A program made the translations under genes and the position numbers. Shown piece after piece: positions 1 to 16,192 of a DNA stretch of 16,753 bases. Source of the stretch: Desulfobacula sp. (GTDB taxonomy: Bacteria; Desulfobacterota; Desulfobacteria; Desulfobacterales; Desulfobacteraceae); the NCBI RefSeq assembly GCF_021107415.1, contig NZ_JAIOSW010000207.1:1-16753 (forward strand), read 5' to 3'. The notes below the pieces were generated by a model. That model made no database searches, had not been told where the DNA came from, and worked only from the letters and a program-made list of their open reading frames with translations. Position 1 is the stretch's first letter. Each line of letters opens with the position of its first letter.

Positions 1-649
1 GGGTGATTCCCCAGGTCAGCCGGGATTTTGGACGGGAAATGCAAAGATCTTCCAAAGGTTCCTTTAAAAAAGAAAGAATTTCATTTTTGTATTGTGCAGG
101 CCGGATAAAATCAGGATTGGTTTTGATGTGGTTGATAAGCCATTCCTGGTATTTGCTCATTTTGAAAAAATAATTGGATTCCTTGATAACCTTGGGCGCA
201 ACGCCATGGTCCGGGCATTTGCCGTCGACAAGTTCTCTTTCCTGGTAAAACCGTTCACATCCAAAACAATACAGCCCCTCATAGCTTGAAAAATAGATAT
301 CTCCTGAGTCATAAATTTTTAAAAGAACATCGCTGACCACCTTGATATGATCCGGATCTGTTGTTCTGATAAAATGATCATTTTTGACATTTAATATTGG
401 CAATAGATCCTGAAAAAGCTTACTGATATTGTCTGCATATTCTTTTGGCGTTGTTTTCTGGCTTTGGGCTGCCTGAACAATTTTATCTCCGTGTTCATCT
501 GTTCCGGTTAGAAAAAAAGTTTCATGATCATCCATCTGTTTGAATCTTGTTGCAACATCAGCAGCGATGGAGGTGTATGCATGCCCCAGATGGGGCTTGG
601 CATTGACATAATATATGGGGGTTGTAAAAAATTGCTTTTTTGCTTTCAT
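1..649 (-). CDS. metG: Methionyl-tRNA synthetase, N-terminal part (runs off the left edge)
   Basis: Charges tRNA-Met with methionine in the cytoplasm. The 216 visible codons begin MKAKKQFFTTPIYYVN and carry the class I signature as HLGH (residues 20-23). The TGTDEHG segment lies at 48-54. A knuckle-type zinc site follows with C128, C131, C145 and H148. The segment ISRPKSRLTWGI near 204-215 is typical of the Thermus/Bacillus-like MetRS form. The KMSKS loop, the anticodon-binding domain and any C-terminal tRNA-binding domain lie outside the window. The ATG at 649 is preceded by AGGA overlapping the ricT stop codon, with a 16-nt gap to ricT, so translation is probably coupled. It is the last visible gene of the lptD-nusG-ihf-holB-ricT-metG string. 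Identity is secure; only completeness is unknown. Confidence 0.96.
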   Translation of the reverse strand, partial: MKAKKQFFTTPIYYVNAKPHLGHAYTSIAADVATRFKQMDDHETFFLTGTDEHGDKIVQAAQSQKTTPKEYADNISKLFQDLLPILNVKNDHFIRTTDPDHIKVVSDVLLKIYDSGDIYFSSYEGLYCFGCERFYQERELVDGKCPDHGVAPKVIKESNYFFKMSKYQEWLINHIKTNPDFIRPAQYKNEILSFLKEPLEDLCISRPKSRLTWGIT

Positions 650-665
650 TATTTTGTAGATCCTG

Positions 666-1457
666 TTATTGCCTCGCCAGTTGTTGGATGGTTTTTTCTA
701 TTTCGGTATTATTTTCTAAACGAATAGTGATACTCTCTTTTAACACATTCTGCCTGATAACTTTTCCTTTACCTTCTTCTATGGTGATTCTTTTACCCAG
801 TTTGGGCATTTCGCGTTTAAGGCTTTTATAGGTTTCATTTTCAAAGGTCAGACAGCACATCAGTCTGCCGCAAACCCCGGAAATTTTTGTGGGATTCAAT
901 GACAGTCCCTGCTCTTTGGCCATTTTGATGGAAACCGGTTCAAAGGTATGCATAAAAGAAGAACAGCAAAGTTCTCTTCCGCATTTGCCAATACCACCGC
1001 AATGTTTTGAAAGATTGCGAATCCCGACCTGACGCATTTCAATCCGAATAGTGAATTCTTTTACCAGAAGTTTGATTAATTCTCTGAAATCAATCCTGCC
1101 GTCAGCAGTGTAGAAAAAAGTTAATTTGTTTCGATCAAATGTGCTTTCAACGCTGAACAGGTTCATGAAAAGATCTAAATCAGTAATGCATTGGATGCAA
1201 AAATCAAAGGCTCTTTTTTCAAGTTTTTTTATTTCTTCTCTTCTAAGACAGTCTTCTTTGGTGGCAACACGGATAATCTGCTTTAATTTTTTTTCCACAT
1301 TTTCAACTTCAACGGGAGGGATGGCGATTTTGCCAAATCCAAGACCCTGCTCGGTTTCTACGATTACAGAGTCTCCTTCTTTCAGCACAAAAGCATTGCT
1401 TTTGAAGTCATATATTTTCCCTGCTGTTTTAAATTTAACGCCAGCAACTTTAATCAT
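666..1457 (-). CDS. ricT: RicT/YaaT-type PSP1-domain iron-sulfur protein
   Basis: A 263-residue protein of the PSP1 C-terminal-domain family. The family hallmark is a double cysteine cluster, seen here as GKCGRELCC (C159, C164, C165) and GVCGRLMCC (C196, C201, C202), with a further C153. In Bacillus subtilis the homologue RicT (YaaT) joins RicA and RicF in a [4Fe-4S]-binding complex affecting RNase Y-dependent mRNA processing and development. That is family knowledge; no RicA or RicF partner is visible here. The start ATG lies inside the end of holB (8-nt overlap, ATGATTAA), and AAAGGAAAG in the holB 3' end serves as its ribosome-binding site. The holB-ricT neighbourhood is the same as in Bacillus. 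Function in this organism is inferred; family assignment is strong. Confidence 0.92.
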   Translation of the reverse strand: MIKVAGVKFKTAGKIYDFKSNAFVLKEGDSVIVETEQGLGFGKIAIPPVEVENVEKKLKQIIRVATKEDCLRREEIKKLEKRAFDFCIQCITDLDLFMNLFSVESTFDRNKLTFFYTADGRIDFRELIKLLVKEFTIRIEMRQVGIRNLSKHCGGIGKCGRELCCSSFMHTFEPVSIKMAKEQGLSLNPTKISGVCGRLMCCLTFENETYKSLKREMPKLGKRITIEEGKGKVIRQNVLKESITIRLENNTEIEKTIQQLARQ

Positions 1458-2508
1458 AAATTAACTTTCCTTTGTTCGTAATAATTTTAAGGAAAAATCT
1501 ATCCAATGTTAATCTTAATGTGCAGTTTGATGCCAGTCTTTTTTCCGTTTCATAAAGATCTTTGATCCACTCACATTTTTTTTTTGTTCCAGCCATTTGA
1601 CTAATATCTATAATAGCGTCAGAAAAATCAAGATTAACTATTTTTTTGGGATGAAATTTAAAAACCATTAGATCCCGGAAAAACGTTTTCATAATGGCAA
1701 TGGCATCATCAATTAGGTCGGGATACAAGCTCAACTTTTGTGAAAGCATCAATCCTTTTGATATGTCGTGATTCGTGTCAGCTTGAATTATGCCGGCAAG
1801 GGTTTTAAGCAGCCACTTTCTTTTTTTGATCCAGTCAATCTTTTTTGCTTTATCATCCAAAGTTAAATTCAAATACATCATTGCCTTTCTAAGATCAGAA
1901 TCGGCAGTTTTCGATGCAATTGCCGCCATTTGCTTGTCAGTTTTGAATTCATTGATCAGGTATTGCTCAATGAATTCGTTGGTCAACGGTTTAAATCTGA
2001 TTTTACGGCATCTTGAAATAATGGTTGGAAGAAATAAAGATATCTTGCTGGCAATGAGGATGAAAAATGTTTTTTCAGGGGGCTCTTCAAGCATTTTTAA
2101 TAATGCGTTCTGGGCCTGGATATTCATTAGATCTGCATTTAATATTAATACCATTCTGAATTTGGCTTCATTGGGCCTGGATGAAATTGCTAATCCCATT
2201 TCACGGATCTGGGATATGGAGATTATTTTTTTGTCTTTTAGAGGGTTGATACTTAGGATATCGGGATGACTTTTTGCATTTATTTTACGGCACGATTTAC
2301 AATCGTTGCAAGCAAGTCCCGTCCCTTTCAAACAATTACACCCCTTAGCAAAGAAAAATGCCGCTTTTTTTCTTCCTGTATTCTCATTTCCAAAGAAAAG
2401 AAGGGCATTTGGAATTTTTTTTGCCTGAATGATGATAGTTAACTCGGATACGGTTTCCGCTTGGTATTGCATTTGATCAAAATCAGACATGGTTTGATCA
2501 ATAACCAT
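1450..2508 (-). CDS. holB: DNA polymerase III delta' clamp-loader subunit
   Basis: A 352-residue AAA+ clamp-loader subunit that helps load the beta sliding clamp during replication. The P-loop region reads GNENTGRKK (40-48), without a proper GK[ST]; delta' subunits commonly lack a functional ATP site. A zinc-module cysteine cluster follows (C57/C59, C67, C70, C73). The conserved NALLKMLEEPP segment lies at 134-144 and the SRC motif at 165-167, the latter needed in the family to trigger hydrolysis in a neighbouring subunit. The C-terminal half is divergent, as usual for delta'. The gap to the upstream IHF/HU stop is only 3 nt. The Shine-Dalgarno is weak (GGTAG about 12 nt upstream), so coupled translation is likely. 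An in-frame ATG six codons in is an alternative start without a better ribosome-binding site. Confidence 0.93.
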   Translation of the reverse strand: MVIDQTMSDFDQMQYQAETVSELTIIIQAKKIPNALLFFGNENTGRKKAAFFFAKGCNCLKGTGLACNDCKSCRKINAKSHPDILSINPLKDKKIISISQIREMGLAISSRPNEAKFRMVLILNADLMNIQAQNALLKMLEEPPEKTFFILIASKISLFLPTIISRCRKIRFKPLTNEFIEQYLINEFKTDKQMAAIASKTADSDLRKAMMYLNLTLDDKAKKIDWIKKRKWLLKTLAGIIQADTNHDISKGLMLSQKLSLYPDLIDDAIAIMKTFFRDLMVFKFHPKKIVNLDFSDAIIDISQMAGTKKKCEWIKDLYETEKRLASNCTLRLTLDRFFLKIITNKGKLIYD

Positions 2509-2511
2509 TTG

Positions 2512-2787
2512 TTAATAATCTACCCGCTCCTTTAGTTCTTTCCCACATTTAAAAAAGGGGAGCCGTTTGGGAGGAATGGTGACTTTTTGGCCGGTTTTCG
2601 GGTTTCGGCCTGTGTAGCTTTTGTACCCTTTTATATAAAAACTGCAAAAACCCCTAATTTCAACCCTTTCTCCTTTTATAAATGAATCGGAAAGCGAGTC
2701 AAAAAATATTTTAATAACCTCTGAAGCTTCGGATTTTGTCAGGCTTGCTTTCTCTTTTAATGTCGAAATCAATTCAAGTTTATTCAT
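2512..2787 (-). CDS. IHF/HU-family DNA-bending protein
   Basis: A 91-residue nucleoid-associated protein that should dimerise and bend DNA. Visible hallmarks are the N-terminal helical dimer region (MNKLELISTLKEKASLTKSE), the EIRGFCSF beta segment (43-50) and the DNA-arm RNPKTG (61-66), whose proline intercalates in IHF/HU. The PFFKCGKELKERV C-terminal signature (78-89) resembles IHF subunits more than HU. C48 sits where most relatives have glycine (GFGSF), and C81 lies in the FKxGKELK segment. The reading frame is open up to a TTG at 2865, but the ATG at 2787 has a clear GAGGAAG ribosome-binding site and gives the normal family length. It sits between a NusG paralogue and holB. Whether it is the alpha, beta or a stand-alone form cannot be settled here. 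Confidence 0.92.
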   Translation of the reverse strand: MNKLELISTLKEKASLTKSEASEVIKIFFDSLSDSFIKGERVEIRGFCSFYIKGYKSYTGRNPKTGQKVTIPPKRLPFFKCGKELKERVDY

Positions 2788-2836
2788 ACTTCCTCTTTCT
2801 ATTATTGAATGCTGCAATCTTATTATTTTCATAAGG

Positions 2837-2865
2837 ACTTTAATTAAAATTTGATAAAAAGTCAA
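2837..2865 (-). promoter_or_regulatory. Possible internal sigma70-type promoter for the IHF/HU gene
   Basis: On the minus strand, TTGACT (2865-2860), a 17-nt spacer and TAAAGT (2842-2837) lie in the 82-nt gap between the NusG-paralogue stop and the IHF/HU start. It is the only sizeable gap in this gene string. It may allow IHF/HU, holB, ricT and metG to be expressed independently of lptD. By-eye consensus match only. Confidence 0.4.
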
Positions 2866-2869
2866 GGGG

Positions 2870-3394
2870 TTATGCTAAAAAATCAGGGACTCTTTCAACA
2901 TTATCTTCTTTAACTTCAACCCCGGCGTATTGTCCTAAAACATCTATTTTGATAACAACACGTCCTTTGCCTTTATATCTTGCAAACTCGCCTTTAACCC
3001 CTGCCATAGGACCTTCTAAAATTATCACAGGCTGGCCTTTTTTTATGCGGACATTTTCTCCAGTGATCAGATCCATATTGGCGCTGGTAAGGATTTTTAA
3101 TGATTCAACCTGTGATTCGGGCACGGGCACGGGTCCGGATTGATTTCCCAATAATCTAACGGCCCCGACAGTTTTTAAAATATTGAGCTGGTCAGCAGCT
3201 TCAAACGTTGATTGTACAAAAACATATCCCGGGAAAAGCGGGATTTCTATCATGAGATTTCTATCTTTCCGCCTGCTTTTCCTTTTTGTTTTGGGTAAAA
3301 ACGCTTGGATTTTTTTTTTCACAATACTAGTGTATACTATTTGCTCAAAGTTACTTCTTGTCAGAAGAGCAAACCAGTTTAATCGTTCAATCAT
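2870..3394 (-). CDS. NusG paralogue (RfaH/UpxY-like transcription antiterminator)
   Basis: A 174-residue protein with an N-terminal NGN domain (about 5-103; NWFALLTRSNFEQ, FLPKTKRKSRRK, then IPLFPGYVFV) and a C-terminal KOW domain (about 118-150; GQPVIILEGPMAGVKGEFAR). The length and the RPVP-like VPVPES linker match the specialised NusG paralogues (RfaH, UpxY, LoaP families) that bind elongating RNA polymerase and suppress termination in particular long operons. Housekeeping nusG normally sits beside secE and rplK, which are absent here. Its ATG overlaps the lptD stop codon (ATGA, 3391-3394), so it is translationally coupled to the outer-membrane LPS translocon gene. An operon-specific role, in this operon or in surface polysaccharide operons elsewhere, is inference. 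I found no ops-like element by eye. Confidence 0.88.
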   Translation of the reverse strand: MIERLNWFALLTRSNFEQIVYTSIVKKKIQAFLPKTKRKSRRKDRNLMIEIPLFPGYVFVQSTFEAADQLNILKTVGAVRLLGNQSGPVPVPESQVESLKILTSANMDLITGENVRIKKGQPVIILEGPMAGVKGEFARYKGKGRVVIKIDVLGQYAGVEVKEDNVERVPDFLA

Positions 3395-5613
3395 TTTGTA
3401 CCAAATTCTCCGATTCCATGAAGATTTATTAGAAAGGTAATACTCTGTTCACCACGTGATTCTGAAAAATAAAGGCTAAATAACCAGCAGGATTTATTGA
3501 TAGTGAATCCGGCCTGGGTTTCCACGGTTTTATTTTCCTGTATGTTTTTTTCAATGGAGTAATATGCGGTTAATTCGTCTGTTAAGCTGATATCAATCTT
3601 TGAATACAGAGATTCTGAAGAGCTGCTAGTATATCGATATTCTGTTCTTAAACTGTCACCCCGATTGTCTTTGAGAGTATTCCCAATGTTTAATGTTTTA
3701 AAATGGCTGTCATAGGGAGACCAGGAAAGATCCATATCAAGGGTACAAAACTCATTTAGATTCAGCTCCGTATCCAATAGGATATCAGAAAATGGTTTTG
3801 ATTCATTGTCCCTTTCCCTTTTGATATCAAAACTTTGGGAAATTTTGATATATGCAAAATCGCGGTAGGTTAATCTCTCTTCGCCTTTAGGGGTTAAACT
3901 GGATTTTCTGGAAATGAAATGATTGGTAAGAGACCAGGTAAGTAAATTTTTTTCCGGAATATTGTCCAGAGAATCAAAGGTCGGCAGATCATTTTGAATG
4001 ATGCTCGGGGTAAAGGCGTATTCAATATTCGGGATAATTTCATGTTTGATCTTATCAGCAAATTCATTGTTGGGATTAAAGATTTTAATCAGTTTTGTGG
4101 ATAGTTCCGCGCCAATATCATACATCTGTCTTGTCCGAAGACTGTCGGAATTGCCGTTAATATCCGTGAATTCATTGGTATGCCAGACGGTTTGCCTTAC
4201 ACCAACAGATGGTTCAAAATTAAAAAAACCGCCAAATTTCAGGGGCAGATAGACTTTGGGGTAGATATCTGCTCGTTGCCCTTTCACAAGTGTTGCACTT
4301 GTATCTTTCCTGTAAAAAGATCGATACTCGGTATCAAGAGAATAAAAGAATTTTGAAAGACCAATTTGCTGTTTTGCAGCATCAAACTGAATGCTTGGAA
4401 GTGTTTGCAAAGTTGTGTCATCAATATTCTGGCGCCGGGCAGAAATATTGTCATACCACAAAGCATCAACATTGAATATGTAGCTATCCCATGATTTATT
4501 GATATTCAACCAGTTTTTTCGGGTATTGTCATCATATTCATCCAGACTTCGCCCAAATTCTTTTTCAAAATATTCTTTGGTTTCATCATATCCCGTAAAT
4601 CCGTCTTGAAATTCATGAAGGTAATCTTCATCACTGACTACGTCGATATCCAGCTTGGCTGTAATTCCATTGGGAAGGTCCTGGTTGTGTCTCATCCTGA
4701 ACCAGAAGCGGTCAGAGTTGGTTCTTTGAGGGGTGGTGGAAAAACTATAGTTTTTTGTACTGATGGTTCCATCATCTGTTTTGTCATCTTTAAGAAAATC
4801 AAAGAATATTGACCCCTTTGTCTTGTTATCCAGAACATATCGGTATTCAGTACCCAATTTTGTTCCTCGATCAGACATGTAATCTGCATATACCGTTGCA
4901 TCGGTATTTCTTGAAATAGCGATAAAAAGAGGCTGTTCGTATTCAAATCCCTTTCGGTCAGATGATGATATCCTGGGGATTAAAAGGCCTGTCTGGCGTT
5001 TGGTCTGGACCGGAAACACAAGAAAAGGGCTGTAGACAACAGGAACCTTCTTGGCCCAAAGAACGGTATGGCTTGCAACCCCGTATCCTTCAACAGTTAC
5101 TTTGATATTTTTGCCGGAAATTTTCCAGTCAGGAGAATCACCTGTGCATGATGTAATGGATCCCTTTTGGGCACTATAAGTAAATTTACCGGTCTTTCTA
5201 ATAATCTCACCATTAATATAAAAATTGTTTTTCTGGATAAAAATGGTGCCTTTGTTTATCGTACCGATTTGACTTGTAAGGTTGATATTCATTGCATTGC
5301 AGGAGATGGAATCTTCACCGGCTATTAAAAGAACATTGCCTTGTGCAAAGGCATCCTTTGTTTTATTTGAGAATTCAACATAATCTGCTTCAAGCCTGGT
5401 TTTGCCTCCTGTGATCACTACATCATTTTCGGCAATATAGAGGTTTTTTTTGTTGTCAAAGGTCACTGTCCGTGCAGATATATGCCAGGAAATTTCTTCG
5501 GGATTTTGGGGTAAAGAATTTGCTATTACGCTCCCCCCGGCTGATATGAATATATAAAAAAAAGCAAATATCACAAAAAGTGGCCAAGACTTTTGCTTTG
5601 ACAAACTAACCAT
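3391..5613 (-). CDS. lptD: LPS-assembly protein LptD (outer-membrane LPS translocon)
   Basis: A 740-residue outer-membrane protein that inserts lipopolysaccharide into the outer leaflet together with lipoprotein LptE. A signal peptide (residues 1 to about 31, ending near VIANS) is followed by an OstA/LptA-like beta-jellyroll with regularly spaced segments such as ARTVTFDNKKNLYIAENDV. ITSCTGDSPDWKI then leads into the region with PVVYSPFLVFPVQTKRQTGL, typical of the LptD plug/barrel junction. A long beta-barrel of alternating polar and aromatic residues ends with LHGIGEFGTK. The frame is open to a GTG at 5637, but the ATG at 5613 has GGAAAG immediately upstream and starts at the signal peptide, so I chose it. 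It is first in the leftward gene string, with a possible promoter about 45-70 nt upstream. Confidence 0.94.
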   Translation of the reverse strand: MVSLSKQKSWPLFVIFAFFYIFISAGGSVIANSLPQNPEEISWHISARTVTFDNKKNLYIAENDVVITGGKTRLEADYVEFSNKTKDAFAQGNVLLIAGEDSISCNAMNINLTSQIGTINKGTIFIQKNNFYINGEIIRKTGKFTYSAQKGSITSCTGDSPDWKISGKNIKVTVEGYGVASHTVLWAKKVPVVYSPFLVFPVQTKRQTGLLIPRISSSDRKGFEYEQPLFIAISRNTDATVYADYMSDRGTKLGTEYRYVLDNKTKGSIFFDFLKDDKTDDGTISTKNYSFSTTPQRTNSDRFWFRMRHNQDLPNGITAKLDIDVVSDEDYLHEFQDGFTGYDETKEYFEKEFGRSLDEYDDNTRKNWLNINKSWDSYIFNVDALWYDNISARRQNIDDTTLQTLPSIQFDAAKQQIGLSKFFYSLDTEYRSFYRKDTSATLVKGQRADIYPKVYLPLKFGGFFNFEPSVGVRQTVWHTNEFTDINGNSDSLRTRQMYDIGAELSTKLIKIFNPNNEFADKIKHEIIPNIEYAFTPSIIQNDLPTFDSLDNIPEKNLLTWSLTNHFISRKSSLTPKGEERLTYRDFAYIKISQSFDIKRERDNESKPFSDILLDTELNLNEFCTLDMDLSWSPYDSHFKTLNIGNTLKDNRGDSLRTEYRYTSSSSESLYSKIDISLTDELTAYYSIEKNIQENKTVETQAGFTINKSCWLFSLYFSESRGEQSITFLINLHGIGEFGTK

Positions 5614-5631
5614 GTTCTTTCCAGTAAAAAA

Positions 5632-5660
5632 TTGCACATCAGTTAAAATTACTGTATAAA
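5632..5660 (+). promoter_or_regulatory. Possible promoter for the cysK-cysS fusion gene
   Basis: TTGCAC (5632-5637), a 17-nt spacer and TATAAA (5655-5660) precede the fusion gene by about 75 nt on the plus strand. Its -10 box coincides with the candidate -10 of the opposing lptD promoter, and its -35 falls in the presumed lptD 5' leader. Consensus match by eye. Confidence 0.35.
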
Positions 5661-5684
5661 GCCATCTTATACTTTAAAAGTCAA
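5655..5684 (-). promoter_or_regulatory. Possible promoter for the lptD gene string
   Basis: On the minus strand, TTGACT (5684-5679) is followed after 18 nt by TTTATA (5660-5655), or after 17 nt by CTTTAT. The predicted transcript start is about 35 nt before the lptD ATG. It overlaps the candidate rightward promoter of the fusion gene. By-eye match. Confidence 0.4.
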
Positions 5685-5714
5685 GTTTTGAATACATGAT
5701 TTGGAGAGTTCAAC

Positions 5715-5732
5715 ATGACAAAGGTTAAATAA
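5715..5732 (+). other. Possible five-codon leader ORF (MTKVK) before the fusion gene
   Basis: A short ORF, ATG ACA AAG GTT AAA TAA, has its own GGAGAG Shine-Dalgarno at 5703-5708. It ends 3 nt before the ATG of the cysK-cysS fusion and is in the same frame. The fusion ATG itself has only AAGG about 11 nt upstream. The mini-ORF could therefore deliver ribosomes to the main start by reinitiation, or it may be coincidence. Nothing in its five residues points to attenuation (no cysteine run). Confidence 0.3.
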
Positions 5733-5735
5733 AAA

Positions 5736-8015
5736 ATGACGTTTTCAATTATAGATTCCATTGGCAATACCCCTCTTGTTGAGATAAAAAAGATGAATCC
5801 TGTAAAAGGGGTCAAGATTCTTGCCAAACTTGAATATATGAATCCCGGTGGCTCTGTTAAAGACCGGGCAGCGCTGTATATGATCAACGAGGCGGAAAAA
5901 TCCGGTGAATTGACCAAAGACAAAATTGTTATCGAGGCAACCAGCGGGAATACGGGTATCGGACTTGCCATGATTTGTGCGGTTAAAGGATATAAAATTG
6001 CCCTTACCATGGCAGAAAATGCAAGTGAAGAACGAAAAAGTATTTTGCGCGCAAGGGGTGCCCAGATTATTTTAACCCCCAAACGTCTGGGGTCTGATGG
6101 CGCAATTGAAGAGGCATACAGACTTGCCAGGGAAAATCCGGATAAATATTTTCTTTGTGATCAGTATAATAATGAAGCCAATTGGAAAGCCCATTATTAT
6201 ACCACGGGACCTGAAATCATTGAGCAGACCAATGGAAAGGTCACTTCTATTGTAGCAACCATTGGAACAAGTGGAACGCTTATGGGGCTTTCCAGGAGAT
6301 TAAAAGAGCATAATAAGGATATTTGGATTGTATGTGTTGAACCGTACCTCGGGCATAAGATCCAGGGTCTGAAAAATATGAAGGAATCTTATACCCCTGA
6401 GATCATGGAGAAAAGCCGTCTTGATGAAAAGGTGAATATTGATGATGACACGGCTTTTGCTGCTGCTCGCAGTTTAGCTGTAAAAGAAGGACTTTTTGTT
6501 GGGATGAGCAGTGGCGCAGCAATGGCAGCTGCCATTGAGCAGGCCCATAAAATTAAACAAGGTCTTATCGTGGTTATCTTTCCAGACAGCGGAGAACGGT
6601 ACCTGTCCACCAATCTTTTCTCTGTAAAAAGCCATATCGGCTTGTCGCTTTTTAATACATTTTCAAGATCAAAAGTAAGGTTTGAACCGCTTGAAAAAGA
6701 AAAAGTGTCTATATACACCTGCGGACCCACTGTCCATGAAAGGCTCAATATAGGGCAGTTCAGAAGATATGCATTTACGGATTTACTGGTCAGATATATC
6801 GAGTATCATAATATTGCTGTCAATCATGTGGTTAATATCACAGACTATGATGACAAGACCATTCAGGGGTCACAGAAGGCAGGGAGGTCACTTTCTAAGT
6901 TCACCCAAACCTATATAGATCTTTTTAGGAAAGATCTATCAAAATTGAATATCCGAAAAGCAGATGCCTATCCAACAGTATCAGACCATCTTGATGAAAT
7001 GGTTGATGTGGCAAAACAGCTGCAATCAAATCAGCATGCCTATGAAAAACTGCATTCTCTCTATTTTGATATTGGAAGCCTGCCCGAGTATGGTGATCTT
7101 TCCAGAATTAATCTTGATAAGATAAAAGTCGGGGCAACAGTGGATCTTGACGAGTATGAAAAGCGTAATCCAAAGGATTTTACATTGTTAAAACGGGTTC
7201 GGCTTTCAGAACTTAAAAGAGGCGTGGGGATTAAGACCCAATGGGGTAATGTCCGTCCTTCACTTCATTTGCAGTGTGCGGCCATTGCCATGAAGTTTCT
7301 GGGAGAAAATTTTGATATTCAAACCGGCAGCCTGGAACTTATATTCCCGCACCATGAAAACGAAGTTGCCATTGCAAGAGCTGCAAAAGGAGCAACGCTT
7401 GCAAGGTGCTGGCTGCATTGTGATCCGGTTCACTATGACGGGTCTTTAGATGCATCAGATATTGAAACACTGACACTTGAAACCCTTGTCAACCAGGGCT
7501 GGGCCCTCAAAACCATTCGACTCTGGTTGATTTCCAACCATTACAGAAAAACCTTAGTGCTGTCAGAACAATCCCTGAAACAGGCTCAATATACTCTGGA
7601 TAAAATCAATAGGTGTCTTACTACTTTGAGTGTGATTAAAGAAGGAGATAATTTTAAAGAGATTGATCAATTGGTATATGATATAAAATCGGCTTTTCTT
7701 CAATCCATGGAAGATGATTTAAAAATTTCAGGGGTCATCTCTTCTTTGCTGGCAAATGTGAAAACCATCAACAGGCTGATCAATCAGAACAAAATTGATC
7801 CGGATAGTGCCCAAAAACTTGTGAATTGTTTTAAAGACATTGATTTGGTTCTTAAGATTTTTAGTTTTGGCAAAAAACAAGAATATTCAGGCGAAATCCA
7901 AAATCTTATAAAGGAACGTGAACGCGCACGAGAGCAAAATGACTGGGAACTGGCGGACAGGATTCGGGAGCAGTTAACAGGTTTAGGCATCAGCGTTCAT
8001 GATAAAAAGGCATAA
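5736..8015 (+). CDS. Cysteine synthase fused to a degenerate cysteinyl-tRNA synthetase domain
   Basis: A 759-residue two-part protein. Residues 1 to about 300 are a PLP-dependent O-acetylserine sulfhydrylase-type domain: SIGNTPLVEI at the start, the Schiff-base lysine K42 in GGSVKDR, TSGNTG (69-74), the phosphate-binding GTSGT (177-181) and PDSGERY (283-289). From about 310, the sequence follows cysteinyl-tRNA synthetase along its length: TCGPTVHE, NITDYDDKTI, NPKDF, FPHHENE and a C-terminal helical region near 724-755. All four expected zinc ligands are present (C329, C514, H539, E543). However, HIGH is replaced by NIGQ (338-341), KMSKS by LDASD (571-575), the GWHIEC tryptophan by L510, and DIHGGG by DIQTGS. 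The C-terminus also stops short of the usual family end. Cysteine synthesis is likely; aminoacylation is doubtful. A separate true cysS elsewhere in the genome is expected. Confidence 0.9.
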   Translation: MTFSIIDSIGNTPLVEIKKMNPVKGVKILAKLEYMNPGGSVKDRAALYMINEAEKSGELTKDKIVIEATSGNTGIGLAMICAVKGYKIALTMAENASEERKSILRARGAQIILTPKRLGSDGAIEEAYRLARENPDKYFLCDQYNNEANWKAHYYTTGPEIIEQTNGKVTSIVATIGTSGTLMGLSRRLKEHNKDIWIVCVEPYLGHKIQGLKNMKESYTPEIMEKSRLDEKVNIDDDTAFAAARSLAVKEGLFVGMSSGAAMAAAIEQAHKIKQGLIVVIFPDSGERYLSTNLFSVKSHIGLSLFNTFSRSKVRFEPLEKEKVSIYTCGPTVHERLNIGQFRRYAFTDLLVRYIEYHNIAVNHVVNITDYDDKTIQGSQKAGRSLSKFTQTYIDLFRKDLSKLNIRKADAYPTVSDHLDEMVDVAKQLQSNQHAYEKLHSLYFDIGSLPEYGDLSRINLDKIKVGATVDLDEYEKRNPKDFTLLKRVRLSELKRGVGIKTQWGNVRPSLHLQCAAIAMKFLGENFDIQTGSLELIFPHHENEVAIARAAKGATLARCWLHCDPVHYDGSLDASDIETLTLETLVNQGWALKTIRLWLISNHYRKTLVLSEQSLKQAQYTLDKINRCLTTLSVIKEGDNFKEIDQLVYDIKSAFLQSMEDDLKISGVISSLLANVKTINRLINQNKIDPDSAQKLVNCFKDIDLVLKIFSFGKKQEYSGEIQNLIKERERAREQNDWELADRIREQLTGLGISVHDKKA

Positions 8016-8018
8016 GTC

Positions 8019-8993
8019 ATGACAAATAAATTTTTATTTTTTCCCTTCACCCATATTACCTTAAAACAGTTAAACACCATTTTAGCTTTTTTCCCGTCAT
8101 TTCAATATTTACCGGGAAGCCGGGATTTCAAGCATCATCAAGTATTACAGGCGTTATTTGAACAGGGGAAAATCGCTCCGTTTTTTTTATCAGCCAAAGA
8201 ACTTGAGACGGTTGAACAAAAACTTGAACAATATCTGGAATGGGTTCGGATTCATAAAGGAAATAAAGTAAATCTTAAATCACTTTTAAAGGACAACCCT
8301 TATTTTACAAGTGATACAAATGTGACAGCCATTAAATCACGGATCAAAGGGTTTAAAGAAGGTAAAAGAGATCCAGATACTGCTTTATCAGATGAATCAG
8401 CCCTGCAACGCGATTTGTTGTTTTTGAAGATGGCTCAATTGTGTGATGAACAAAATGAACGCATTGATTTGGAGTTAAAAAATCTGGATACAACTCGCCA
8501 TAAGCTTATGTCAACTTTGCGCGGATTAGAAAGCCCCTCAAGTGATATCAAGGGCAGTAAAACAGATGGCGATAAAGATTCAGGGGATATGATGACCCGT
8601 GAGCGGATATATACCTGGTCAGGATGTATGGCTCAAAAGGGGGCATTCAAAAAAGAAGGGGGAGGGCAGCCTTTATTCATCACTACCAGTGAGGCAGTAT
8701 TTGACTATCTTGAGTCTATTTGCAAAGATGTTGTAAATGCCCTTGACATTGATAAAATAAAAGTGCATGAAAATGAATGTGAAAATAAAAGTGAATGGCA
8801 ACATTATTTTTGTGACTATTTGATGCGTGCAATTCAAGGCAATGGAACCCGGGAAAACAATATGCCAAAAGTGAATGACAAGTGCTCGCTTTCAGGGCAG
8901 ATTAAATTAAATCTCTTTTCCGGGAATGATATAAATAAACTCTTTAATTATTCAGAAAAACATATACCTGTATGTCTGATCAAATTAAAGTGA
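8019..8993 (+). CDS. Uncharacterised 324-residue protein coupled to the CysK-CysS fusion
   Basis: I do not recognise this family. It starts 3 nt after the fusion-gene stop, with AAAAGG inside the end of the fusion gene as its likely ribosome-binding site, so the two are almost certainly co-transcribed. The N-terminus is aromatic-rich but has no convincing signal peptide or membrane helix (KFLFFPFTHITLKQLN). Residues about 60-80 and 125-170 look like amphipathic or coiled-coil helices, including ALQRDLLFLKMAQLCDEQNE. A polar, probably disordered stretch (172-192) precedes a C-terminal part holding six of the seven cysteines (C203, C235, C254, C265, C289, C319), not arranged as a standard iron-sulfur or zinc motif. 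Codon and base use match the neighbours. A role with the fusion protein is suggested only by position. Confidence 0.8.
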   Translation: MTNKFLFFPFTHITLKQLNTILAFFPSFQYLPGSRDFKHHQVLQALFEQGKIAPFFLSAKELETVEQKLEQYLEWVRIHKGNKVNLKSLLKDNPYFTSDTNVTAIKSRIKGFKEGKRDPDTALSDESALQRDLLFLKMAQLCDEQNERIDLELKNLDTTRHKLMSTLRGLESPSSDIKGSKTDGDKDSGDMMTRERIYTWSGCMAQKGAFKKEGGGQPLFITTSEAVFDYLESICKDVVNALDIDKIKVHENECENKSEWQHYFCDYLMRAIQGNGTRENNMPKVNDKCSLSGQIKLNLFSGNDINKLFNYSEKHIPVCLIKLK

Positions 8994-9001
8994 TAAAAAA
9001 C

Positions 9002-9029
9002 TTGATTTTAATTAATACAATGTTATAAA
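9002..9029 (+). promoter_or_regulatory. Possible promoter for the ferredoxin gene
   Basis: TTGATT (9002-9007), a 16-nt spacer and TATAAA (9024-9029) lie in the AT-rich gap before the ferredoxin gene. A second TATAAT occurs at 9066-9071 without a clear -35. No terminator is evident after the preceding gene, so some read-through is also possible. Confidence 0.4.
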
Positions 9030-9090
9030 AGCGTTTTTATACAGATTATATTTAAAGAATGAGTTTATAATATAATAATGTTAATTTTTT

Positions 9091-9097
9091 AAGGAGG
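9091..9097 (+). promoter_or_regulatory. Near-perfect Shine-Dalgarno of the ferredoxin gene
   Basis: AAGGAGG lies 8 nt before the ferredoxin ATG. It is the strongest ribosome-binding site in the window; most other genes here have partial matches. This suggests high translation of the ferredoxin. Confidence 0.8.
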
Positions 9098-9105
9098 CTA
9101 TTAAA

Positions 9106-9294
9106 ATGGCATTTACCCCAATTGTTGATCACGAAAAATGTGTTGGTTGTGAAGAATGTGTAGACGTATGTCCAGTGGAAGTATTTGAAATGGAAGATGG
9201 CAAGTCTGTTCCAGTTAATGCTGAAGAATGCATGGGCTGCGAAAGCTGCGTGGAAGTTTGTGAAGAAGACGCTATTGTAATTGAAGAAGACTAA
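9106..9294 (+). CDS. 2[4Fe-4S] bacterial ferredoxin
   Basis: A 62-residue soluble, acidic electron carrier. Two clusters are predicted from paired CxxCxxCxxxC motifs: C12, C15, C18, C22 (the last followed by proline) and C42, C45, C48, C52 (followed by glutamate instead of the usual proline). No extra insert, twin-arginine signal or membrane anchor is present, so it is cytoplasmic. Low-potential ferredoxins of this size serve as partners of oxidoreductases in anaerobes such as sulfate reducers; the partner here cannot be read from context. It appears to be a single-gene unit: a candidate promoter upstream, a very strong Shine-Dalgarno and a strong terminator 23 nt after the stop codon. Those signals suggest high expression. 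Confidence 0.96.
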
Positions 9295-9316
9295 GAAAAC
9301 ACGTCTTACAATAGAT

Positions 9317-9359
9317 AAAAATACCGGGTGATGCTTTACATCACCCGGTATTTTTTTTT
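9317..9359. terminator. Strong bidirectional intrinsic terminator
   Basis: A perfect 17-bp stem (9317-9333 pairing with 9339-9355) closes a five-base CTTTA loop and is followed by a T-run to 9359. The left arm begins with an A-run, so the minus strand also reads hairpin plus T-run. It can end both the ferredoxin transcript and the convergent transporter transcript. The right arm encodes the last residues and the stop codon of the transporter. Confidence 0.93.
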
Positions 9360-10228
9360 GTGCCGACAGTATTGGTCAGGTATACACCTGTAATAACAAA
9401 TACTGCCCCAATAATTAAAGAAAAGGTTAAAGGTTCTTTTAAAATAAAGAACGAAAGAACAATAGCACTGACAGGGACAACGTTAATGAAGATACCGGCT
9501 TTCATCGGGCCGATTTGTTTGATCCCTTCATAATACCACAGAAATCCAAGCACTGTGCCAAAAAATCCCAGATAGAACAGACTCGCCCATTCAACAGGTT
9601 TATAGGATGCCATATTCAAAAATACACCCTTAAAAAGGGCCGGGAAAAACAATAGCAGAGTCCCTGCAATGGATGAATAGCAGACTGATACAATGGGGGA
9701 TAAATCATTCATGGCTTTTTTCCCCAGGATCGAATAGGCAACCCAGCTTGCAACACATCCAAAGATGAGAAGCTCTCCTTTCCCAATCCCCAGTGTTAAT
9801 ATAGTAAAAAGATTTCCATTTGAAATAACAATTAAAGCGCCTGTGACTGACAGACAAAGCCCAATCACTTTCAGGAAGTTAAGCTGCTCCCTAAAAAAGA
9901 TAACAGAACAAAGGCTGATAAAAATAGGATTGCCGGCAATAATCAGTGATGCCTGGTTGGCCTGAATATGATTTAGGCCTGAGAAAAAAAACAGGTTATA
10001 GGAAAAGATACCTGTAAGACCCAATAAAAATACGATAAATATTTTATCAGGGGCAAGCCTGGGAAGGTGCCCTTCGATTTTTACGGTTAAAAAGATGAGA
10101 AAAAAAGAAGCGATGAAAAACCGTATGAAAGCTGCTGAGGAGGGGTCTATATTGTGAGAAATTAATTTCCCCGCAATAAAGGTTCCTCCCCAGAAAACAG
10201 CAGCAAATATCAATTTGAGATATGTCAA
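9341..10228 (-). CDS. EamA/DMT-superfamily transporter, TTG start
   Basis: A 295-residue inner-membrane protein with about ten predicted transmembrane helices arranged as two EamA repeats (first begins LKLIFAAVFWGGTFIAGKLI; second begins near LLIFGCVASWVAYSILGKKA). The family exports metabolites, including some amino acids and other small compounds; the substrate is not predictable here. The start codon is TTG: AAAGGA lies 7 nt upstream, and the first helix begins four residues in, leaving no room for a later start. The C-terminal residues KKNTG and the stop codon lie inside the terminator hairpin shared with the ferredoxin gene. A TTGACA-containing promoter candidate lies just upstream. The gene stands alone on its strand. 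Confidence 0.92.
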   Translation of the reverse strand: MTYLKLIFAAVFWGGTFIAGKLISHNIDPSSAAFIRFFIASFFLIFLTVKIEGHLPRLAPDKIFIVFLLGLTGIFSYNLFFFSGLNHIQANQASLIIAGNPIFISLCSVIFFREQLNFLKVIGLCLSVTGALIVISNGNLFTILTLGIGKGELLIFGCVASWVAYSILGKKAMNDLSPIVSVCYSSIAGTLLLFFPALFKGVFLNMASYKPVEWASLFYLGFFGTVLGFLWYYEGIKQIGPMKAGIFINVVPVSAIVLSFFILKEPLTFSLIIGAVFVITGVYLTNTVGTKKNTG

Positions 10229-10235
10229 ACTTCTA

Positions 10236-10241
10236 TCCTTT
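10236..10241 (-). promoter_or_regulatory. Ribosome-binding site supporting the transporter's TTG start
   Basis: AAAGGA on the minus strand, 7 nt before the TTG at 10228. No ATG or GTG lies near enough to serve the first transmembrane segment. Confidence 0.65.
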
Positions 10242-10260
10242 AAATAAAAATAATTTTGGT

Positions 10261-10289
10261 ATTAGCACAGACAAGCGTTTAAATGTCAA
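10261..10289 (-). promoter_or_regulatory. Possible promoter for the DMT transporter gene
   Basis: On the minus strand, a consensus TTGACA (10289-10284) is followed after 17 nt by GCTAAT (10266-10261). An alternative is TAATAC after 19 nt, preceded by TGC. The predicted transcript start is roughly 25 nt before the TTG start codon. Confidence 0.5.
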
Positions 10290-10404
10290 GCAAAACACCT
10301 CAAATTCAAATCTTGCGTTATATGAATGATGTAAAAAGGTTGAGGAAGTTTGATTTATTTTTAAAATTCACCTGTGATTATCCCCAAGTAAAAATTCTTA
10401 AACC

Positions 10405-10434
10405 TTTACAATTTCATACGCTATAAATTATATA
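10405..10434 (+). promoter_or_regulatory. Weak promoter candidate for the GspE/PilB gene
   Basis: TTTACA (10405-10410), an 18-nt spacer and TATATA (10429-10434), about 50 nt before the gene start. The 253-nt divergent gap (10229-10481) is AT-rich and otherwise shows no structure or ORF I can support. Confidence 0.3.
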
Positions 10435-10481
10435 TATGAAGACAAGATTTTAACCCTATATTCATCAGGACAAATGATTTT

Positions 10482-12305
10482 ATGCCGAATTTAAAAGACA
10501 AAAGATTCTCCTCACAAAATATCTGTAAAATTCTTTTGGCAGGAAAATTAATTTCAAAGGACCAGGCCCGGGATCTTTTAAAAAAAGAGAGCAAGGTAAG
10601 AAGTCTTCTCCTTAAACAGGCGATAAAAAAAATCAATAAAGATTTGTCAAAAGATCAACAGGCCTCCCTGATTTCTTTTATTGATGTTATTTTATATTTT
10701 AAAATAGAAAGAAAGGGTTACCCTTCAAAAAGAATTGATGAAGATTTGATTTATAAAACTTTGGCTGAAGCATGGAAGGTCCCCTATAAAAAAATTGATC
10801 CATTGAAACTTGAGCTGAATCTTGTGACAGGGACTATCTCTAAATCATTTGCCACAAAACATTTATTGCTGCCATTGATGGTCGAGGAAGGCAAATTGAT
10901 TGTTGCAACCCCTGATCCTTTTAATTATGAGGCTATCAGCGATGTTGAAATGGTGTCAAAACTTAAAGTAAAGACTGTGGTCAGTTCAAAATCAGATATT
11001 GAAAAATTGATCAATGAATTTTTTGGATTCAGGCATTCCATTTCTGCGGCAGAAGACCTTTTTTCAACAAAGACACTTGATATCGGCAACCTGGAACAAT
11101 TTGTCAGTTTAAAATCCCTGGATGATATGCCCTCAACAGACCAGCATATTGTTAATGCGGTTAATCATTTGTTTTCCTATTCGTTTGATCAGAAGGCCAG
11201 TGATATCCATATTGAGCCCAAACGGGACATCTGTCTGGTTCGTATGAGAATCGACGGGGTGCTTCATACGGTTTATAAGCTTCCCAAAAAACTTCACAAT
11301 GCCGTGGTCAGCAGGATTAAAACCCTTTCACGGCTGGATATGGCTGAAAAAAGAAGGCCCCAGGATGGTCGGATTAAAATGGAGAAAGATAATACTGAGG
11401 TTGAAATCAGAGTTTCTACCATCCCGGTGGCATTTGGTGAGAAAGTGGTCTTGAGAATCATGGACCCGGATGTCATTTTTCAGGATCTTGAAATGCTGGG
11501 GTTTTTTCAAGATGATTTTAAAAGATATAAAAAATTGATTACCATGCCGTTCGGCATGATTCTTGTGACAGGACCGACCGGATCAGGAAAGTCTACGACT
11601 CTTTATTCAAGCTTAAGATTGCTCTCTTCACCTAAAGTCAATATTACCACCATTGAAGATCCCATTGAAATGATACATGAGGAGTTCAATCAGATTGCCG
11701 TACAGCCCTCGATTGGTGTGACATTCAGTACGGTATTAAAAAATATACTCCGCCAGGACCCTGATATTATTATGGTGGGTGAAATAAGGGATCTTGAAAC
11801 AGCACAGGCAGCAGTCCAGGCTGCATTGACAGGGCATCTTGTTCTTTCCACACTTCATACAAATGATGCAGTGTCCACGATTTTCAGATTGCTTGATCTG
11901 GGTATTCCCCCCTATCTTATCCACTCATCATTGAATGGCATTGTGGCACAGAGACTTGTCAGGAAAATTTGCCCCTATTGTGCCCAGGAGTTTGAAATGG
12001 ATGCAAAAGAGCTTGCTGCCCTTGGACTTAAAATTAAATCCCAGGGTGTTGTCAAGCTTAAGCATGGGAAAGGGTGCGTGAAATGCAGAAATACCGGATA
12101 TAAGGGACGGTCCGGGATTTATGAAATAATGCCGTATTCGGAATCTCTTAAACAGCTGACAACTTCCAATGCAGGACTGGAAACACTAAGAAAAAAAGCC
12201 GTGGAAGAAGGGCTTGTTCTTTTACGCAAAAATGGTATTAAAAGAATGCTTAAAGGGCATACCACTTACCAGGAGATTTTGAGGGTTACTTCGGATCAAA
12301 TATAG
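10482..12305 (+). CDS. GspE/PilB-family secretion or pilus assembly ATPase
   Basis: A 607-residue hexameric ATPase that powers pilus extension or type II secretion from the cytoplasmic face of the inner membrane. Order: a divergent, lysine-rich N-terminal extension (1 to about 85); an MshEN/T2SSE-N-like domain (about 85-185; KHLLLPLMVEEGKLIVATPDP); an N2 domain with ASDIHIEP (239-246); and the RecA-like core. Walker A is GPTGSGKS (364-371) and Walker B DPDIIMVGE (426-434). The Asp box is IEDPIE and the His box is STLHTND (456-462). A tetracysteine zinc module follows (C497, C500, C532, C535). All catalytic elements look intact. No gsp or pil partner gene flanks it, so GspE versus PilB cannot be decided. 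AGGA lies 11 nt before the ATG. Confidence 0.93.
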   Translation: MPNLKDKRFSSQNICKILLAGKLISKDQARDLLKKESKVRSLLLKQAIKKINKDLSKDQQASLISFIDVILYFKIERKGYPSKRIDEDLIYKTLAEAWKVPYKKIDPLKLELNLVTGTISKSFATKHLLLPLMVEEGKLIVATPDPFNYEAISDVEMVSKLKVKTVVSSKSDIEKLINEFFGFRHSISAAEDLFSTKTLDIGNLEQFVSLKSLDDMPSTDQHIVNAVNHLFSYSFDQKASDIHIEPKRDICLVRMRIDGVLHTVYKLPKKLHNAVVSRIKTLSRLDMAEKRRPQDGRIKMEKDNTEVEIRVSTIPVAFGEKVVLRIMDPDVIFQDLEMLGFFQDDFKRYKKLITMPFGMILVTGPTGSGKSTTLYSSLRLLSSPKVNITTIEDPIEMIHEEFNQIAVQPSIGVTFSTVLKNILRQDPDIIMVGEIRDLETAQAAVQAALTGHLVLSTLHTNDAVSTIFRLLDLGIPPYLIHSSLNGIVAQRLVRKICPYCAQEFEMDAKELAALGLKIKSQGVVKLKHGKGCVKCRNTGYKGRSGIYEIMPYSESLKQLTTSNAGLETLRKKAVEEGLVLLRKNGIKRMLKGHTTYQEILRVTSDQI

Positions 12306-12346
12306 CCTTGAAACTTAATTTTTAACAATGATCGACAAGCGGTTAA

Positions 12347-13375
12347 TTAATTTACCATGTCATCCGGGTAAATGGCATAACTTGAAGACATAATCATTAC
12401 GGTTGATGAAATGTCTTCAGTATGGAGTACAATCAGTTTTCCGGATTCCAGGTTCTCAAGTTTAATGGATTCTTTTTTTTGGGGTTGCCAGAGTGTATGG
12501 TCTTTTGTCTCATTTTCCCGAAGAATCGAGTATATCTGTCCGGGCGTAACTTTGGCTTTTCCCGTGTCAATAAATGCAATAGTGTAATCATTAACCATGA
12601 TATTATTGTCTTCGGAACAAATAATTCTTGCATCAATAGGGTTAGGATTTTCTTGAACCGTTAAAATAGAATCCCGCTTATAATATTCCATAATCAAGTC
12701 ATCTTTATATACAGCTCTATATGCATTGGTGATTAATGCTTTTACATAAGTCACTTTATGTTCAAGTATTTTAACCTGTGCTTTGATCAGATGCTTTACA
12801 CCGATAAATGTTTGACCATGAATTTTTTCTTTTAGATTATGGGTGGTGAAAATGTGGTAGACTCTGCCGGGAATAAGTGTTCCTTTGCCTGAGGGTTTTA
12901 TAAAAATAATATCATTAGTAGACATCATCAGGCTGCCGTCCTGTTCCTTTATGATATTGCCAAGGGATGGGTGTGCCTTTTTTTTAATAAACCCGATATG
13001 ATCCATTTGGGAAAAAGAAAAAGAGGCCTTAACCTTGACGGGAACAATTTTTTTTTCAACTTTCTGGACTTTTACAATTTTTGGTTTAAGCGCAATTTTT
13101 TTCTTTAAAAAGATTTGTATCTTTTTTCCGGGATATATCCAATGGGGATTTTTAATATCATCATTTAATTCCCACAGGCCTGGCCAGTCCCATTGGGAAT
13201 TATAAAATTTTTGAGACAAATCCCAAAGGGTATCCCCTTTTTTTATGGTATAGTAGAAACCTGAGTTTTCTCCCGGAATAAATTCTTTATCATCCTGGGC
13301 AAACCCTGTTGAGCAAAAAGCAAATCCCCAAAAAGTTAAAACAAATATTGCTATCATTGTTTTCTGACTTTGCAT
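12347..13375 (-). CDS. Secreted LysM-domain protein
   Basis: A 342-residue exported protein. A signal peptide (residues 1-26, likely cleavage after GFA) precedes one LysM peptidoglycan-binding domain (about 41-90; YYTIKKGDTLWDLSQKFY, then NPHWIYPGKKIQIF). A lysine-rich linker (about 91-117) leads to a beta-rich C-terminal region of some 220 residues containing two similar-looking segments, around PGRVYHIF and PGQIYSIL. I recognise no enzymatic motif there, so a structural or envelope-anchoring role is more likely than hydrolase activity. The ATG is preceded by AGGAGG. The gene converges on the GspE/PilB ATPase with only 41 nt between stop codons and no obvious hairpin. It diverges from the HD-domain gene through a dyad-symmetric promoter region. 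A link to pili or motility is possible but only positional. Confidence 0.88.
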   Translation of the reverse strand: MQSQKTMIAIFVLTFWGFAFCSTGFAQDDKEFIPGENSGFYYTIKKGDTLWDLSQKFYNSQWDWPGLWELNDDIKNPHWIYPGKKIQIFLKKKIALKPKIVKVQKVEKKIVPVKVKASFSFSQMDHIGFIKKKAHPSLGNIIKEQDGSLMMSTNDIIFIKPSGKGTLIPGRVYHIFTTHNLKEKIHGQTFIGVKHLIKAQVKILEHKVTYVKALITNAYRAVYKDDLIMEYYKRDSILTVQENPNPIDARIICSEDNNIMVNDYTIAFIDTGKAKVTPGQIYSILRENETKDHTLWQPQKKESIKLENLESGKLIVLHTEDISSTVMIMSSSYAIYPDDMVN

Positions 13376-13413
13376 ATTTTCCTCCTGATTTGCCTTGGTT
13401 TATTCTTGAATTC

Positions 13414-13443
13414 TTGACTTTATTTAAACTATAGTCCTATAAA
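13414..13443 (+). promoter_or_regulatory. Possible promoter for the HD-REC-motAB gene string
   Basis: TTGACT (13414-13419), an 18-nt spacer and TATAAA (13438-13443), with the HD-gene ATG about 36 nt further on. It overlaps the opposing promoter candidate of the LysM gene. No sigma54 or clear flagellar sigma28 signature was found. Confidence 0.45.
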
Positions 13444-13450
13444 AAGTCAA
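13423..13450 (-). promoter_or_regulatory. Possible promoter for the LysM-protein gene
   Basis: On the minus strand, TTGACT (13450-13445), a 16-nt spacer and TTTAAA (13428-13423). The transcript start would be about 40 nt before the ATG. It interleaves with the rightward promoter in the inverted repeat. Confidence 0.38.
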
Positions 13451-13479
13451 GAATTGTTGCGAATATCATAGGAATTGGA

Positions 13480-14037: not shown

Positions 14038-14066
14038 ACAAAATTTAATTGATTTTTCAGAGTGTT

Positions 14067-15407: not shown

Positions 15408-15410
15408 GAT

Positions 15411-16175: not shown

Positions 16176-16192
16176 TAAAAAGAGAATAAAAA

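Follow-up and report, generated by a model that had tools for sequence, protein, structure and literature searches.

A cysteine synthase fused to a candidate tRNA-Cys-sensing relative of cysteinyl-tRNA synthetase in Desulfobacula and other Desulfobacterota

We analysed a stretch of 16,753 nt from Desulfobacula sp. (contig NZ_JAIOSW010000207.1 of RefSeq assembly GCF_021107415.1, positions 1 to 16,753 of the forward strand; hereafter the window), in which one open frame joins a pyridoxal phosphate (PLP)-dependent cysteine synthase to a domain resembling cysteinyl-tRNA synthetase (CysRS). With moderate confidence we propose that the product is an active cysteine synthase controlled by tRNA-Cys, which would bind to a CysRS module that no longer aminoacylates, and that the enzyme is probably fed O-phosphoserine where cysE is missing. 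Judged from sequence, the gene is a fusion with an intact PLP site, a decayed ATP site, a partly decayed zinc site, a kept anticodon signature and a single origin. Because an intact synthase and constrained tRNA-reading residues coincide with a decayed adenylation site and a separate CysRS, tRNA-Cys sensing would be the simplest common function. The gene and its parts are listed below; family counts refer to 153 fusions, namely that of the window, those of loci L002-L008 of a genome scan and those of 145 sampled genomes.

5736..8015 (+): whole fusion gene, cysteine synthase plus CysRS-like domain; 759 aa, one open frame, ATG start
5736..6626 (+): PLP cysteine synthase domain, CysM type, residues 1-297
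5859..5861 (+): K42, PLP lysine position, invariant in 153/153 fusions
6372..6374 (+): K213, invariant in 153/153 fusions, aligned with R220 of Mycobacterium tuberculosis CysM
6639..7601 (+): CysRS-like catalytic core with insert, residues 302-622, adenylation motifs apparently lost
6720..6722 (+): C329, zinc ligand 1
6747..6758 (+): NIGQ, residues 338-341, at the HIGH/HIGN position
7263..7277 (+): L510-H-L-Q-C514 where CysRS reads W-H-I-E-C, including zinc ligand 2 (C514)
7350..7364 (+): H539 and E543, zinc ligands 3 and 4, within FPHHENE
7434..7460 (+): YDGSLDASD stretch, residues 567-575, at the expected place of KMSKS
7602..7883 (+): helical bundle (DALR-like), residues 623-716; the DALR_2 score of the fusion protein is just under the Pfam cut-off
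7884..8012 (+): anticodon-binding domain, residues 717-759; R732, W737, D741 and D756 aligned with E. coli CysRS

A first-pass annotation of the window had described a single 759-codon frame with an intact PLP cysteine synthase and a full-length CysRS-like domain, and both the frame and Pfam agree with this description: matches were obtained to PALP (residues 7-284, E 2e-72), tRNA-synt_1e (316-618, E 3e-71) and the anticodon domain CysS_C (716-758, E 9e-9). The protein scored 368.9 bits with the cysteine synthase model TIGR01136 (cut-off 344.15) and 325.4 bits with the CysRS model TIGR00435, under a cut-off of 340 that many other fusions pass. Among the best 120 of 3204 matches to the CysRS-like half (the window being one row), which range from 88% down to 59% identity and are mostly named Desulfobacula, Desulfobacter, Desulfobacterales and similar, 118 carry both Pfam domains. 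The fusion is therefore not a sequencing chimera.

In the cysteine synthase half, the PLP lysine, the substrate loop TSGNTG (S70-G74) and the phosphate loop GTxGT are present in the window, the PALP catalytic residues occur in all 145 sampled fusion genomes, and K42, S70, G71, N72, T73, G177, T178, G180, T181, S258 and K213 are found in 153/153 fusions. As read from these residues, the half has an intact PLP site. K213 aligns with R220 of the O-phosphoserine-dependent CysM of M. tuberculosis, an arginine presumably tied to O-phosphoserine use; literature support for this role was sought and not found. We rejected K213 as proof of phosphoserine use because E. coli CysM also has Arg at this position. 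In one pair (window versus L001), dN and dS were 0.043 and 0.567 for the synthase half and 0.073 and 0.504 for the CysRS-like half; the latter, with dN/dS of about 0.14 in this pair, is under purifying selection.

The named standalone relatives of the synthase half are archaeal CysMs of 297-298 aa (Pacearchaeota, Woesearchaeota, Nanoarchaeota) that share the motif GHKxQGLKNMKE; other short rows with higher identity are possibly truncated fusions. The DPANN standalone proteins P0189, P0222 and P0231 are 63-66% identical to the fused domain, a similarity that may reflect transfer between archaea and these bacteria.

We surveyed cysE and cysKM in 60 of the 145 fusion genomes, a chosen, non-random set leaning to long contigs. 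A cysE match at 1e-20 was found in 32/60 and none in 28/60. The best matches of those 32 genomes reached 151-171 bits, and because none attained the curated cut-off of 210.65, 'cysE' in fusion genomes stands for a cysE-like acetyltransferase gene; in several of them (e.g. contig 9 of G001) it adjoins a second cysteine synthase. Another cysKM match was present in 32/32 genomes with a cysE match, and the fusion was the sole cysteine-synthase match in 26/28 genomes without one (exceptions: G239 and G136; Fisher p 5e-15 for the association of the two matches, relatedness ignored). In some of the 26, almost the entire genome lies on the contig that carries the fusion (G046, G109, G222, G212, G073, G036, G339 and G022). 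For comparison, 60 non-fusion genomes gave a cysE match in 48 (25 over the cut-off) and a cysKM match in 59. Many species thus appear to have no cysteine synthase other than the fusion. Since no serine acetyltransferase was matched where cysE is absent, O-phosphoserine is the likely substrate there; an acetyltransferase outside the cysE model is possible.

The CysRS-like core presents a different picture from the synthase half. HIGH/HIGN and KMSKS are both absent from the window protein, and the replacements reported in the first-pass annotation at three sites were confirmed: N338-I-G-Q341 for HIGH, L510 for the tryptophan of GWHIEC, and D527-I-Q-T-G-S532 for DIHGGG. Because the nearest ordinary CysRSs mostly read HIGN rather than HIGH (55/72 reference loci of the genome scan), the likely changes at the first site are H to N and N to Q. 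A fourth replacement, KMSKS by LDASD, held only in that KMSKS is lost: the region reads VxYDGSL in close relatives and is shorter, so that LDASD is merely the nearest alignment column and no plain substitution. The persistence of all four zinc ligands (C329, C514, H539 and E543) in the window was also confirmed. Across the 120 close rows, the motif loss is constant, L510 is fixed and no zinc ligand is missing except for a single gap at C329.

At the other end of the domain, R732, W737, D741 and D756 align with R427, W432, D436 and D451 of E. coli CysRS, which according to a 2004 structure paper reportedly read the GCA anticodon; literature support for the roles of D436 and D451 was sought and not found. 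We compared motif retention in the 153 fusions with that in 140 reference CysRSs (68 standalone loci from fusion genomes and 72 others). In the references, HxG[HN], the zinc set and the anticodon set were complete in 140/140 and KMSKS by a strict pattern in 132/140, the other eight, all among the 72, having near forms missed by this pattern. Among the fusions, HxG followed by H or N remained in 14/153, strict KMSKS in 34/153 and the complete zinc set C, C, H, E in 81/153. A looser look at KMSKS added 20 fusions with forms about one residue off, such as KMSFS, KMSRA and KASRV (54 in total, 99 without). All three features were kept together in 4/153 (L118, L123, L127 and L133), with either KMSKS pattern. 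The anticodon set (R/K732, an aromatic residue at 737, D741 and D756) was complete in 151/153, the exceptions being a frame without that part (L246) and one gapped at the last position (L167).

Conserved columns followed the same trend. The references have 62 core columns fixed at 95%; 31 of these show the same residue in 95% of the fusions, and the five anticodon-domain columns so fixed are all at 94.8% or more; as there are only five, the contrast rests on individual residues and not on the whole tail. All 153 fusions share H511, H539 and an arginine not seen before, R344, so the core is still under some constraint. On these alignments, the adenylation site is decayed along several branches and the anticodon-reading residues are kept, which may be regarded as a natural experiment in which synthetase chemistry was lost repeatedly and the tRNA-reading part retained. 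The suggestion in the first-pass annotation that the domain may bind tRNA-Cys and/or a thiol without aminoacylating is supported by this pattern, next to a synthase active site that appears intact.

These counts also bear on the possibility of a cysteine sensor that works without tRNA, in which the zinc site would bind the product cysteine and feed back on the synthase. Such feedback has a precedent in HisZ, a HisRS paralog without adenylation that mediates the feedback of histidine on HisG (PMC9437257), and the window and its close relatives retain the four zinc ligands, with the one gap at C329. However, L510 and Q513 in the window are changes of conserved CysRS pocket residues, the zinc set is incomplete in 72/153 fusions and the kept anticodon residues are left unexplained. 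With the zinc set complete in 81/153 fusions and the anticodon signature in 151/153, zinc or cysteine sensing alone cannot, on this evidence, be the family-wide function. We consider the sensor unlikely. The zinc-based sensor put forward in the first-pass annotation is hence not supported as a general function and may hold in the window's own lineage, where a cysteine- or metal-binding role is plausible because the close rows keep the zinc ligands along with a fixed L510.

We next describe the distribution and origin of the fusion, counted as a frame of at least 704 aa (704 aa was also the smallest counted) among 395 genomes of Desulfobacterota, 199 of Acidobacteriota and 198 of Nitrospirota. 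At least 145/395 Desulfobacterota genomes carry it (37%, a lower bound, with matches listed down to about E 1e-96), and L001-L008, among the matches listed in the genome scan, are all from this phylum. In Acidobacteriota, it was found in 3/199 genomes (G688, G783 and G725), each with a second CysRS match. In Nitrospirota, 16/198 genomes were over the threshold and six had frames of more than 700 aa, of which the three examined gave no PALP match. A FastTree phylogeny of 293 domains placed all 153 fusions in one clade (support 1.0); when the three fusions from Acidobacteriota were included, 156/156 formed one clade in which the Acidobacteriota branch first, with a support of 0.81 for the other 153 together. 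The trees thus indicate a single origin of the fused CysRS-like domains. Since the clade sits among mostly HIGN-type CysRSs (of Acidobacteriota, archaea and others), apart from the HIGH-type CysRSs of the same genomes, the fused domain is probably not a copy of the resident CysRS.

The presence of a second, canonical cysS, a check proposed in the first-pass annotation, was examined in the genomes of relatives. A separate full-length CysRS was detected with PF01406 in 8/8 named fusion genomes and a separate CysRS with TIGR00435 in 140/145 sampled ones (76/80 plus 64/65; listed rows), which gives 147/152 Desulfobacterota fusion genomes with G001 counted once. The fused domain is therefore normally a paralog. 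The best-scoring standalone loci from fusion genomes (68, G001 being represented twice) have HxGH and KMSKS in 68/68. Of further separate CysRSs, those of G113 and G169 (L313 and L314) have HIGN, GWHIEC and KMAKS, that of G143 is a 419-aa frame with KMSKS, and that of G114 matches the first 332 model positions. In G066, G028 and G102 (L310, L311 and L312), we also observed CysRSs of 729-742 aa with KMAKS for KMSKS and an extra C-terminal part that, by eye, resembles a family 2 glycosyltransferase.

Under the reading we prefer, the N-terminal half would be a catalytically active cysteine synthase, and the C-terminal half a former CysRS that no longer adenylates cysteine and would still bind tRNA-Cys via its anticodon domain. 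Binding would be relayed to the synthase domain and raise or lower its output. In E. coli CysRS, the anticodon region has been reported to be coupled to the catalytic site (PMC9976931). The simplest signal would be uncharged tRNA-Cys, accumulating at cysteine shortage. Cysteine synthesis would then track translational demand rather than the supply of sulfide, of which a sulfide-producing cell should seldom run short. More tentatively, and with less confidence than in tRNA control as such, we suggest that gating of a widespread cysteine synthase by its cognate tRNA, through a built-in non-aminoacylating synthetase, replaces CysE-based control by sulfur supply in sulfide-rich bacteria.

Several points weigh against control by tRNA-Cys. 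The kept anticodon residues could serve folding or structure, and between the window and L001 identity is 0.814 in the anticodon tail versus 0.858 in the core, so that key residues are kept and not the tail overall. The core invariants R344, H511 and H539 suggest a core function beyond tRNA binding only. Motif decay is far from complete family-wide, with a KMSKS-like or near loop in 54/153 fusions, and the four fusions that keep HxGN, KMSRS and all zinc ligands might still aminoacylate; such intact-looking members (e.g. L118 and L123) probably resemble the earlier condition. Some genomes have the fusion in addition to cysE and another cysteine synthase, and there it is not necessarily the chief source of cysteine. 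Finally, a separate CysRS was not seen in 5/145 genomes (G013, G031, G086, G225 and G362; in G031 a second match lies outside the listed rows). As all five assemblies are split over several contigs and their fusions have no KMSKS by the strict pattern, we infer that the missing CysRS reflects incomplete assembly.

Alternatively, the module could serve delivery, docking tRNA-Cys or CysRS and handing newly made cysteine to charging without any control of activity. The fixed fusion of consecutive steps is consistent with this, as is an independent fusion in the Nitrospirota genome G438 (L329:1814-3940, - strand), in which a serine acetyltransferase (cysE 238 bits, cut-off 210.65) precedes a CysRS (598 bits); cysteine-making enzymes have thus joined CysRS more than once. 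However, a fused CysRS that is dead has no use for the cysteine, the second CysRS is not part of the fusion protein, and no gene neighbour is widely conserved: the largest neighbour cluster comprises 16/123 loci (short loci L105-L134 left out), a close neighbour is shared within some fusion subgroups, and none of the 12 commonest clusters is represented in the window. We regard channelling as still less likely than a tRNA-free sensor. No tRNA-Cys was found next to the fusion gene in 152 loci (3-17 kb, 35 of them with some tRNA) or in the window, and no cysteine synthase at 1e-10 beside CysRS in 72 other and 68 canonical loci (the latter 2.6-4.5 kb).

Long frames similar to that of L329 were also noted in L330 and L331, with extensions of similar length. 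In the Acidobacteriota loci L325 (1002-3446, + strand), L326, L327 and L328, CysRS is preceded in frame by a stretch of about 280-355 residues; this stretch gave no Pfam match in L325 and L328, and since the frames run from stop to stop, part of it may be untranslated.

That the protein is still a ligase, activating cysteine in an unusual way and charging tRNA-Cys or another acceptor, seems improbable. Equivalents of HIGH and KMSKS are absent from the window protein, most fusion genomes have a separate CysRS, and the score with the MshC model TIGR03447 was 161 bits, against a cut-off of 485. The MshC-like ligase with changed chemistry considered in the first-pass annotation was set aside on this score and the missing ATP motifs.

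Very improbable, too, is synthesis of cysteine on the tRNA, with the PLP domain sulfhydrylating a serine derivative esterified to tRNA-Cys as a CysM-based counterpart of SepRS/SepCysS. The kept anticodon signature would fit, as would the 28/60 examined fusion genomes without a cysE match and the 26 in which the fusion is the sole synthase match. The scheme needs some enzyme that charges tRNA-Cys with a serine derivative, though, and a separate CysRS is present. The SepCysS-type reading was set aside, as SepCysS was over the cut-off in 0/28 cysE-less fusion genomes (three weak matches of 42-50 bits versus 365; SepRS was not searched). Equally hard to credit is a decayed passenger that only stabilises or oligomerises the enzyme: the HIGH, KMSKS and zinc motifs do vary widely between branches of the clade, but the dN/dS of the one pair, the anticodon residues kept in 151/153 fusions, new invariants such as R344 and the length of all fusion frames (at least 704 aa, also the smallest counted) argue against it.

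No description of the fusion was found in the literature searched, which comprised titles and the beginnings of abstracts of the papers listed and left most subscription journals outside its coverage; the available portions of PMC2922099, PMC5424206, PMC9437257, PMC11580382 and PMC8762117 mention no such fusion. If control by tRNA-Cys is true, a major group of sulfur bacteria would have its cysteine production coupled to translation through the tRNA itself. The finding also identifies, for many of these species, what may be their sole cysteine synthase. Databases call the protein an ordinary cysteine synthase or cysteine--tRNA ligase, and such annotation can mislead metabolic models and genetic-code surveys.

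Elsewhere in the window, a 324-aa protein without a Pfam match is encoded three bases downstream of the fusion gene (8019-8993, +). T-runs flank a strong inverted repeat (9317-9355) that overlaps the last bases of an EamA-like ORF (9341-10228, -) and is likely a two-way terminator between convergent genes. A NusG-like protein (2870-3394, -) adjoins LptD and is possibly an RfaH-type paralog. No Rfam element was found in the window at gathering cut-offs.

Comparison with known systems shows what the fusion shares with each. With CysRS (cysS; E. coli 1u0b/1li5, 8qhp), it has in common the fold over residues 302-759, the zinc ligands, FPHHENE and the anticodon domain; in contrast, it lacks HIGH/HIGN, KMSKS and the GWHIEC tryptophan, is joined to a cysteine synthase and in most relatives occurs alongside a separate CysRS. 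The whole N-terminal domain, with its catalytic residues and Lys/Arg at 213, corresponds to CysM/O-phosphoserine sulfhydrylase (E. coli 2bhs; M. tuberculosis 3dki), which has no counterpart of the 460-aa CysRS-like extension. SepRS/SepCysS likewise link cysteine synthesis with tRNA-Cys, but are other proteins, SepCysS not being over the cut-off in the 28 cysE-less fusion genomes. HisZ is a class II synthetase relative, and the CysRS-like domain belongs to class I. The likeness of the proposed control to HisZ-HisG is thus loose: HisZ, too, is a synthetase relative without adenylation that is linked to the biosynthetic enzyme for its amino acid (PMC9437257; for the window protein, loss of adenylation is suggested by its motifs), but it is a separate subunit responding to histidine, whereas the fusion is covalent and keeps its anticodon domain. 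MshC shares the CysRS-derived fold and is an ATP-dependent ligase (PMC9437257), whereas the window protein is without ATP motifs and still carries an anticodon domain. CysRS* of Desulfobacterales, which occurs with SelC*, is likewise an additional relative of CysRS in this group of bacteria; according to PMC9437257, it has no anticodon domain and charges a tRNA, and the fusion would be the opposite, with an anticodon domain kept and charging apparently lost.
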